DNA of 64,000 nucleotides from Leucobacter soli (GTDB lineage: Bacteria; Actinomycetota; Actinomycetes; Actinomycetales; Microbacteriaceae): assembly GCF_910593785.1 (NCBI RefSeq), contig NZ_CAJVAP010000016.1:1-64000 (forward strand), read 5' to 3'. The notes below the pieces were generated by a model. The model searched no databases. It saw only the letters and a program-made list of their open reading frames with translations, and had not been told where the DNA came from. Position 1 is the first letter of the stretch, and each line of letters begins with the position of its first letter. Below, piece after piece: positions 35,006 to 37,700 of this stretch. A program made the position numbers and the translations under genes.

Positions 35006-35239
35006 TCAGTCGAGGTCGCGCAGCGAGCCGAGCACGGCATCGCGGAGCGACGGCGGCGCCGCGCCCTCGCACGCCCGCCGCACGGCGACCGTCAGCTTCT
35101 CGAACACCTGCTGCTCGTCGCGGCAGTCGCTGCACGTCTCCAGGTGCTCGCGGATCGGCGCGCAATCGGCATCGCACAGCTCGCCGCGGATCAGCTCCTC
35201 GAGATTGGCGCGGGCGTGCCCGCAATCGCATCCGCTCAT
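35006..35239 (-). CDS. rsrA: Mycothiol-system anti-sigma factor RsrA
   Basis: This 77-residue zinc-binding, redox-sensing anti-sigma factor (ZAS family) holds SigR inactive until its thiols are oxidised. The diagnostic HxxxCxxC motif is HLETCSDC (His32, Cys36, Cys39), and the N-terminal [17 protein letters not shown] supplies additional Cys, as in S. coelicolor RsrA. Length is slightly shorter than that protein (about 105 residues). The ATG at 35239 overlaps the sigR stop by 4 nt, giving coupled, stoichiometric synthesis. It is convergent with the peptide-transport operon. Confidence 0.93.
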
Positions 35240-35907
35240 TCCGCACTCCCTTCCTTCGCCGCTTTCGACGGGCCCTTCGACCGGCGCCCGGAGGTGCCAG
35301 ATCCACGAGCCGGCTCGGCGGCCGACGGCACGCCGAAGCCCTGCTCCCTGGCGTAGTCCCCCAGCGACTGGCGCAGGCGCGCCCGGCCGCGGTGCAGCCG
35401 GCTCATGACCGTGCCGATGGGCCGCTCGATGATGTCGGCGATCTCCTGATAGCTGAAGCCCTCGACGTCGGCCAGGTAGACGACCATGCGGAAGTCCTCG
35501 GGCAGGGCGTTCAGCGCATCGGTGACGACGGTCGCGGGCGTCCGGTCGATCGCCTCCGCCTCGGCGGAGCGCGAGGCCATCGCCGTCGTCGACTCCGCAC
35601 CGCCGAGCTGCCAGTCCTCGAGTTCGTCGACCGCGCCGAGGAACGGCTCCCGCTGCCGCTTCCGATAGGTGTTGATGTACGAGTTCGTGAGGATCCGGTA
35701 CAGCCACGCCTTGAGGTTGGTGCCCTCCGTGAAGCTGTCGAACGCGCTGAACGCCTTCGTGAAGGTCTCCTGCACCAGATCCTGTGCATCCTGAGGATTG
35801 CGCGTCATCTTCATGGCGGCGCCGTAGAGCTGATCGAGGAAGGGCAGCGCGTCGCGCGTGAAGCGCGCTTCGAGTTCGCGCGCGTCGCTGGTCTGGCTCC
35901 GAGTCAC
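35236..35907 (-). CDS. sigR: ECF sigma factor SigR/SigH (thiol-oxidative stress)
   Basis: This ECF sigma factor directs RNA polymerase to disulfide-stress genes (thioredoxin, mycothiol, proteases). The short form from the GTG at 35907 has 223 residues: region 2 ([22 protein letters not shown], then [24 protein letters not shown]) and region 4 ([30 protein letters not shown] and [15 protein letters not shown]). The last ~30 residues are basic and Ser/Lys-rich. The frame stays open to an ATG at 36108 with AGAGAGG 8 nt upstream, giving a 67-residue Arg-rich N-terminal extension and a long isoform; a SigR-type promoter lies just upstream. A TAGCAT -10-like box 8 nt before the GTG could yield a near-leaderless short mRNA. 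The stop overlaps rsrA. Confidence 0.93.
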
Positions 35908-36146
35908 AACACCCGATGCTACCGCGTCGCGCGGCGCAGACCTGCGGCGGCGTCCCCGGACCGGGTCGCTCCAGTGCGCGCGCGTGCGCGCCGGAGCGAC
36001 CCGGCGGCCCGCCACCGCATCGCGCACGGATCGCACAAAGAGCGGCGGCATCCCTCGGCCTGCCCGGATGGGAGCGCGCCCGCTCGCCTCCTGCATCGCC
36101 AACGCCATCGCACCGACCTCTCTCGAACCACTGCCGTAGAATCTTC

Positions 36147-36172
36147 AACCAGAGACACCAGACGTCTATTCC
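36147..36172 (-). promoter_or_regulatory. SigR-type promoter driving sigR (GGAAT-N18-GTT)
   Basis: Read on the minus strand, GGAAT (36172-36168) is separated by exactly 18 bp (36167-36150) from GTT (36149-36147). This matches the published SigR consensus GGAAT-N18-GTT. A transcript would start near 36140 and reach the upstream ATG at 36108 after about 32 nt. It implies positive autoregulation of sigR-rsrA. Confidence 0.75.
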
Positions 36173-36191
36173 AACGGAGGCGCCCTTTTCC

Positions 36192-37700
36192 ATGCTCGAA
36201 GCCAAACTCAACCACGGTCGCGACGACGAGGACCCGGCGGGCCAGGGCGAGAGCTTCGACGGCGGCGCACCGCCTTGGGCGGCGCCCGTCGCCGAGACGC
36301 GGATCGACGCGACCGTCTCGCTGCCGGGATCGAAGTCGCTGATGGGGCGCGAGTTGATCCTGAGCGCGCTCGCCGACGCTCCCGGCACCGTGCACGCTCC
36401 GCTGCACTCGCGGGACTCGCAGCTGATGATCGACGCACTGCAGGCGCTCGGCACCGGATTCGATCGGATCGAGGCCGAGGATGACGCACCCGAGGTGCTG
36501 CGGATCACGCCGGCCGAGGAGCTGATCGGGTCGACGACGATCGCCTGCGGGCTCGCCGGTACGGTGATGCGCTTCGTGCCTCCGGTGGCGGCGCTGGCCC
36601 TCGGACCGACGGCGTTCGACGGCGACCCCTACGCGCGGAAGCGCCCGATGCGACCGGTCCTCGACGCCCTGCGCGCGCTCGGCGCGGACATCTCGGACGA
36701 CGGTCGCGGCGCCCTGCCCTTCACCGTGCACGGCACCGGCTCGCTCCGCGGCGGCCGCGTGGAGCTCGACGCCTCGCTCTCGAGCCAGTTCGTCTCGGCC
36801 CTGCTGCTCTCCGCCGCCCGCTTCGAGGAGGGCGTGCACGTGGTGCACACGGGCGATCGCGTCCCGAGCCTGCCGCACATCGAGATGACGCTCGAGGCTC
36901 TGCGCGAGCGCGGCGTAGAGGCGGACTCCCCCGCTCCCGGCGAATGGCGCGTCTCGCCCGGTCCGATCCGTGCGCGCGACGTCGTGCTCGAGCCCGACCT
37001 CTCGAACGCGGCCCCCTTCCTCGCCGCGGCGATCGCCGCCGGCGGCAGCGTCACCGTGCCGCGCTGGCCTGCCGCGACCACGCAGGTGGGCGACCGGCTG
37101 CGAGAGCTCCTCCCCGCCTTCGGCGCGACGGTCGCGCTCGACGGCGACCGGCTGACGGTGACCGGCGACGGCGCGGTGCGCGGCGTCGAGCTGCACGTGC
37201 CCGAGGGCGGCGAGCTCGCGCCGACCCTCGTCGGGCTCGCGGCGATCGCGGCGCTGCCCGGCGCCGGCGGCGAGCCGGGGGCGACGAGCCGGATCACCGG
37301 CATTGGCCACATCCGGCATCACGAGACGGACCGGATCGCGGCGCTGGTCGCAGAGATCAACGGACTCGGCGGCGACGCGCACGAGCTCGAGGACGGCATC
37401 GAGATCCGCCCGGCGGAACTGCACGGCGGGACCTGGCGCGCCTACGCCGACCACCGCATGGCGACGACGGGAGCCCTCGTCGGGTTGCGCGTCGCGGGCG
37501 TGCAGGTCGACGACATCGGCACCACCGCGAAGACGCTGCCCGAGTTCCCCGAGCTGTGGGGGCGGATGCTCGGCGTCGCCCCGGCCGACGCGGCGCAGGG
37601 CGGCACCGGTACGCCGAGCTCATCGGGCGCTTCGATCGGCACGTCCCTTCCCGGGATGCTCACCCTGCCCGAGCCCCCGGACGGAACCCGCTGGGCATGA
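36192..37700 (+). CDS. aroA: 3-phosphoshikimate 1-carboxyvinyltransferase (EPSP synthase)
   Basis: This 502-residue cytosolic shikimate-pathway enzyme joins shikimate-3-phosphate and PEP. It is an inside-out alpha/beta barrel of two halves. Active-site segments are [19 protein letters not shown] (phosphate-binding Lys-Ser), [78 protein letters not shown] and the closing AYADHRMA. Both ends exceed the usual ~430 residues: a 40-residue acidic N-terminus and a Gly/Ser-rich tail after ELWGRML. ATG 36192 has GGAGG 11 nt upstream; TAGAAT at 36137-36142 is a likely -10. It is divergent from sigR, and its stop overlaps rsgA (ATGA). Confidence 0.95.

Follow-up and report, generated by a model that had tools for sequence, protein, structure and literature searches.

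The sigR–rsrA operon of Leucobacter soli very probably carries two promoters that select two different start codons, the upstream of which would be controlled by SigR itself and would direct synthesis of a long SigR isoform of the SigR′ type. The isoform is of a known kind; it is accompanied here by a putatively leaderless short form. In the proposed scheme, the downstream promoter, p1, would be constantly active and produce a leaderless mRNA giving short SigR, which is kept inactive by RsrA. Under disulfide stress, oxidised RsrA would free SigR to transcribe the upstream promoter, p2 (GGAAT-N18-GTT), and because the leader of the p2 mRNA, approximately 30 nt long, contains a Shine–Dalgarno sequence, ribosomes would start at ATG 36108 and add 67 residues to SigR. 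The inner GTG 35907, which lacks a Shine–Dalgarno sequence, would be little used on this mRNA. If it behaves like Streptomyces SigR′, the long form would supply a burst of active sigma factor whose N-terminal tail makes it a short-lived Clp substrate. The boxes and the reading frame are present in the sequence, and in relatives they are conserved and lost together; from the sequence we infer promoter activity, leaderless initiation and production of the isoforms in Leucobacter, and the instability and Clp turnover of the long form would follow the Streptomyces precedent.

Two proposed start sites in the sigR–rsrA locus

The window, that is, the whole analysed stretch of 64,000 nucleotides, contains sigR and rsrA on the minus strand. 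The short SigR reading frame (223 aa, positions 35236–35907) starts at GTG 35907, and its stop overlaps the start of rsrA (35006–35239), which encodes a zinc anti-sigma factor. In profile searches, SigR matched TIGR02947 (SigH_actino) with 290 bits, above the cut-off of 251.55, and this match, together with the adjacent RsrA zinc anti-sigma gene, places it in the SigR/SigH orthologue group. RsrA scored 26.4 against Pfam zf-HC2 (cut-off 22.2) and 48 bits against TIGR03988 (antisig_RsrA), below the cut-off of 62.5.

The first-pass annotation had claimed a SigR-consensus promoter aimed at sigR, an ATG preceded by a ribosome-binding sequence, and a stop-free N-terminal addition, each of which was confirmed by direct reading. 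The SigR-type −35 box GGAAT (36168–36172, minus strand) is separated by an 18-nt spacer from the −10 box GTT (36147–36149, minus strand), and the p2 transcript is predicted to start near 36140. The Shine–Dalgarno sequence AGAGAGG (36117–36123, minus strand), which forms a duplex of −11.2 kcal/mol with the 16S tail, lies 8 nt 5′ of the ATG codon at 36108–36106. From this ATG, 67 stop-free codons (35908–36108, minus strand) lead to GTG 35907, and the open reading frame list gives a 290-aa frame ending at 35236. The layout is that of a SigR′-type gene, with a SigR-type promoter upstream of a probable housekeeping one and an in-frame upstream start that would create an N-terminal extension. As a separate observation, the p2 −35 box lies approximately 20 bp from the ATG of the divergent gene aroA (36192–37700, plus strand; interval 36168–36194), so the control regions of aroA and sigR must overlap.

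The first-pass annotation had omitted the second promoter, p1, which lies inside the last codons of the extension and would make the short form. Its −10 box, TAGCAT (35916–35921, minus strand), ends exactly 8 nt 5′ of GTG 35907, a start with a Shine–Dalgarno energy of −3.4 kcal/mol, which agrees with the leaderless-promoter pattern of a TANNNT ending 6–8 nt 5′ of a start that has no Shine–Dalgarno sequence. Because of this box position, p1 is probably a housekeeping promoter and short SigR is probably translated from a leaderless transcript. Across the 131 frame-0 loci of the two comparative sets described below, the median energy at the short start was −2.9 kcal/mol, compared with a background of −2.6 kcal/mol in 15-mers of sigR coding sequence. 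The long starts have strong Shine–Dalgarno sequences (median −11.3 kcal/mol; weaker than −7 in 5 of the 131), but they were selected for that strength. Lacking a Shine–Dalgarno sequence, the short start would hardly be usable on a leadered mRNA.

Within the genus, a TANNNT box shortly 5′ of an in-frame start was present at all 50 Leucobacter loci examined. These derive from 54 genomes searched, 51 of which gave a match, with a genome containing only fragments omitted. One genome yielded two equal-scoring sigR copies, of which a single copy was used; the two matches lie on two contigs (G018:C1:10308 and G018:C2:3587) and reflect either duplication or assembly redundancy.

The 2.87-Mb genome contains 28 matches to the strict GGAAT-N18-GTT pattern, many of them probably due to chance, and by arithmetic from this count approximately 0.002 would be expected on the sense strand in the 450 nt upstream of any given gene. 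With spacers of 17–19 nt, the window contains two matches against 0.74 expected. The open frame downstream of p2 was rejected as evidence when taken alone. Frame 0 of the p2-to-start intervals contains stops at 33 of 3,554 codons, a rate at which 67 codons would be stop-free about half the time in this GC-rich composition. Codon usage was equally unhelpful, the coding signal being weak: the window's extension has a log-odds score of −12, where the opening 201 nt of sigR score +44, the other sense frames −32 and −34, and the best of the antisense frames −4.8. Across 22 close pairs, substitutions at the three codon positions number 49, 30 and 59, a just mildly coding-like distribution. The even odds of the open frame and the poor codon usage, together with the variable length and sequence of the region among close relatives, also suit a reading in which p2 is real but the region 5′ of GTG 35907 is an untranslated leader, with all SigR short and the open frame fortuitous. 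Because the 67-codon frame is weak by itself, comparative tests of the frame carry the case beyond chance.

Start frame and promoter spacing in relatives

The first comparative set was assembled from 50 loci of the genus, 80 named loci and 28 further loci of the family, and removal of identical ones left 123 distinct loci, still including nine near-identical pairs (>95%). A strict p2 was defined as GGAAT-N17..19-GTT within 450 nt, and of the start codons lying 3′ of the predicted p2 transcript start and 5′ of the short start, the one with the strongest Shine–Dalgarno sequence was scored. Both a strict p2 and a p1 box were present at 80 loci; 37 loci, all from Leucobacter, had no p2, and 6 had p2 without a p1 box by the rule used. 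The scored start was in frame 0 at 62 of the 80 loci, all 62 being open to the short start, in frame 1 at 10 and in frame 2 at 7, and was absent at 1. The 18 exceptions comprise 12 Cellulomonas loci and L037, L086, L100, L117, L124 and L125, and three of the frame-0 cases are weak or trivial (L099 with 2 codons, L101 with 8 codons and L137 with a Shine–Dalgarno energy of −2.4). Within Leucobacter, 12 of the 13 loci with p2 are in frame 0; at the exception, L037, the box is N17-spaced and the Shine–Dalgarno-led start is out of frame, and the p2 arrangement there has probably decayed.

The later set consisted of 80 more family loci taken down the similarity ranking and thinned within genera (282 of the 299 family genomes gave a match). 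Of its 71 scored loci, 69 are in frame 0 and open, one (L172) is in frame 2 with an in-frame start nearly as strong as the one chosen, and one (L208) has no scored start; L171 repeats the record L087 of the first set, and without it the count becomes 68 of 70. Among the genera with a scored start, 27 of 28 are entirely in frame 0. Four of the nine unscored loci belong to one genus and lack a strict p2 but keep the 8-nt p1 gap described below; in three of these, LLDAP or LLSAP is encoded in frame from an upstream ATG, and two of the four have GGAAT-N18-CTT. The fourth, L222, has an extension start of the conserved type (MAQALLDAP-like) that, unlike in its three congeners, is out of frame with SigR, through either decay or a sequencing error. 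A wider search of the other five unscored loci found an 8-nt box farther upstream at three and none at two.

As a control, the 37 p2-less Leucobacter loci were scored over the 130 nt immediately 5′ of the short start, where frames 0, 1 and 2 were used 11, 15 and 11 times; start frames at these loci are random. Because the loci are related, the frame and layout counts are not independent and no p-value is attached to them. Most of the loci scored in the window's family show the layout, and the earlier claim of a SigR-autoregulated long isoform is favoured by this conservation of frame as the best reading of the locus.

The frame counts also bear on the possibility that ATG 36108 opens a leader reading frame that regulates sigR through attenuation or coupling, without a fused N terminus. 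A Shine–Dalgarno-led start shortly 3′ of a transcript start is a leader-peptide layout too, but such reading frames would terminate ahead of the gene and would have no need of a shared frame, whereas the frame-0 loci are stop-free to the short start in 62 of 62 and 69 of 69 cases; we regard this explanation as extremely improbable.

The spacing of p1 differs with the presence of p2. Where p2 is present, 8 nt separate the p1 box from the short start at 80 of 80 loci of the first set and at 71 of 71 scored loci of the later set, counted to the downstream codon where two adjacent start codons are possible. The 37 Leucobacter loci that lack p2 have gaps of 7 nt in 21 cases, 6 nt in 15 and 8 nt in 1. 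The fixed gap can be explained because gaining or losing 1 or 2 nt there would move the entire extension into another frame. A 6-nt gap also brings the TAG of the p1 box into frame as a stop, and in 15 of the 37 p2-less loci the first in-frame stop comes after 3 codons. A gap that is fixed with p2 and drifts without it would be the signature expected of a translated extension, and the p1 box would thus be an example of an overlapping reading frame fixing the spacing of a promoter.

An untranslated leader is therefore very unlikely to be the right account of the region. It leaves unexplained why Shine–Dalgarno-led starts fall in the SigR frame at nearly all later-set loci and Leucobacter p2 loci but in under a third of the controls, and why the p1 gap is constant solely where p2 is present, and it would require translation from a short start that a leadered mRNA could hardly use.

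The absence of p2 affects 37 of the 50 Leucobacter loci, and no degenerate p2 (some one-base variants of GGAAT, with GTT kept) was found within 300 nt of the core at these 37. On a SigR tree of 60 rows, 23 of which have p2, the p2 label needs 2 changes (1–3 over bootstraps) compared with approximately 18.5 when shuffled. So few changes point to a single loss of p2 in Leucobacter, or to a few losses, and the 37 p2-less loci are consequently not independent of one another. The p1 spacing appears to have drifted after this loss. Natural experiments are offered by related Leucobacter species, some of which keep the autoregulatory promoter and the extension and others of which lack them.

The predicted N-terminal extension

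The first-pass annotation had described an addition of 67 Arg-rich residues. These are present in the window, but they are atypical: at the 69 frame-0 loci of the later set, the extension has a median length of 24 aa (range 13–52), and the leader, counted from the predicted p2 start, has a median of 36 nt. At 67 aa, the window's extension is the longest of 131, exceeding the next by 15 residues, and with 22% Arg it is the most Arg-rich among the listed extensions of at least 30 residues. In close Leucobacter relatives, the extension ranges from 7 to 46 aa and its residues are little conserved. Residue conservation was accordingly set aside as evidence for the 67-aa extension, since position, frame and Shine–Dalgarno sequence are what persist in near relatives; the window seems to have retained these three while its residues drifted. 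The LDW or LGW found at the ends of many extensions was likewise discounted as protein conservation because these residues are dictated by the p1 box (TAGACTGG in frame).

Many extensions in the wider family start like (M/V)xxAVLERP. An AVLERP-like pattern, defined after both sets had been viewed, lies near the N terminus in 22 of 59 (first set) and 32 of 69 (later set) frame-0 extensions of at least 9 codons; it is absent from the shifted frames (+1 and +2), and approximately 1.6 and 1.9 occurrences are expected after residue shuffling. By eye, the motif is also present in Brevibacterium, in Kineosporia and, outside the order, in L254 (as LLERP). The window's own start, MALAMQEAS, can be loosely aligned to xSLAVLERP but fails the AVLERP-like pattern.

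The long isoform may also be made without being an unstable burst form, its tail instead altering RsrA binding, promoter choice or localisation, or being neutral in the genus. The little residue conservation in Leucobacter, the unusually long and basic tail in the window and the loss of p2 from most Leucobacter loci agree with this. We nevertheless consider it unlikely, because the recurrent N-terminal motif of the family would suit a terminal degron and because the Streptomyces homologue is unstable: the accessible parts of two papers give S. coelicolor SigR′ a half-life of about 10 min and describe its removal by proteases of its own regulon (PMC4921905, PMC5472188). If the long form is indeed short-lived, the extension motif would be a compact candidate degron.

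A broader model for the Microbacteriaceae and their neighbours, which we hold to be evenly poised between right and wrong, is that the 5′ end of the mRNA picks the isoform. Leaderless mRNA would give stable SigR and leadered stress mRNA would give SigR with an AVLERP-type degron, p1 lying inside the codons of the extension and its spacing being frozen until p2 is lost. The comparisons suggest that the two-isoform design arose long ago, is widely distributed and has its reading frame maintained, and that the positive-and-negative feedback design of Streptomyces SigR may be old and common in the Microbacteriaceae. In such genomes, a single annotated sigR start may omit one of two real starts.

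Two further features of these proteins were observed. A cysteine is located near residue 5–6 (ATC, TAC or TIC) in the extensions of L088, L089, L090, L199, L251 and L254, for which a redox role is imaginable, and in some SigR proteins of the Microbacteriaceae (L196, L217, L220 and L242) a long acidic segment separates the short start from the conserved core.

Known systems and other candidate SigR-type promoters

The first-pass annotation had presented the design as one found outside Streptomyces. This holds, since most family loci that were scored have the layout, but the design is not new as a kind: the title of Kim et al. 2009 reportedly extends the unstable long isoform to actinomycetes, and the same study is said to attribute an equivalent unstable long form to Mycobacterium smegmatis SigH. 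L254, from another order-level relative, has in-frame upstream sequence with LLERP.

The locus resembles that of S. coelicolor SigR′, as described in the sources consulted, in having an upstream promoter of the SigR-dependent type, an upstream ATG in frame, tens of additional N-terminal residues, a second promoter farther downstream from which the short form would be made, and a sigR–rsrA operon. The extension of about 55 residues quoted for S. coelicolor by the first-pass annotation agrees with the 55 (PMC4921905) or 58 (PMC5472188) extra residues given in those texts for the product of sigRp2. The short form differs: in Streptomyces, it is described as starting at GTC with an extensive ribosome-binding site, whereas in the window it starts at GTG without one, 8 nt 3′ of a TANNNT box. 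The Streptomyces extension sequences are not alike overall to those found here. Two Streptomyces-like loci used as positive controls, L251 and L252, show an ATG followed in frame by a GTC with a strong Shine–Dalgarno sequence, 55 and 65 codons apart, respectively, the spacing in L251 being equal to the published SigR′ extension size. L251 was classed as Streptomyces-like because of its GTC start and 9.2-Mb genome.

In C. glutamicum, the orthologous sigH–rshA operon also includes the anti-sigma factor, but it differs by having four housekeeping-type promoters upstream of sigH, a SigH-dependent one not being described in the accessible portion of the source (PMC3489674). M. tuberculosis sigE is likewise an ECF sigma gene whose N termini differ by promoter, having, in the part of the paper available, alternative promoters of which one is leaderless and one SigH-dependent; it is another sigma factor, and in this case the SigH-dependent promoter lies internally and yields shortened isoforms (PMC10027907).

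A literature search of titles and abstract openings, with Kim 2009 and Kim 2012 outside its scope, returned no leaderless short SigR of such a design, and a search for the Leucobacter sigR sigma factor returned nothing. The literature so surveyed contains no description of a leaderless short sigR form, of the spacing lock, of the N-terminal motif or of the disappearance of p2 in Leucobacter; these points may have been published earlier.

The 28 genomic GGAAT-N18-GTT sites were also inspected by scanning 10 open reading frames downstream of them. One site ends 99 nt 5′ of the strong Shine–Dalgarno start of a ClgR-like regulator gene (L277:1501-1949; G000:C2:45629), the ClgR-like match scoring 101 bits, below the model cut-off of 170. 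ClgR is a presumed activator of clp genes, and SigR control of clp genes through this clgR-like gene is possible. Control of ClgR by SigH is reported for C. glutamicum, yet a change in clgR could not be demonstrated, according to the accessible part of the source (PMC3489674). A second site ends 107 nt 5′ of the strong Shine–Dalgarno start of sigA, a principal-type sigma gene (L290:1501-2977; G000:C13:49394), and a third lies directly upstream of a SufS-like cysteine desulfurase gene (L293; G000:C14:8935; 474.9 bits, cut-off 475.1). In the proposed scheme, SigR-type promoters at the clgR-like, sigA and sufS-like genes would close a negative loop. The sites L279 and L284 were rejected as SigR promoters because they are palindromic (GGAATACC...GGGTAT-like) and are likely to be the operator of another regulator; the palindrome at L284 adjoins a protein resembling a heavy-metal-binding domain. 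Two matches to Clp_N are also present in an open frame of 904 aa in this genome.
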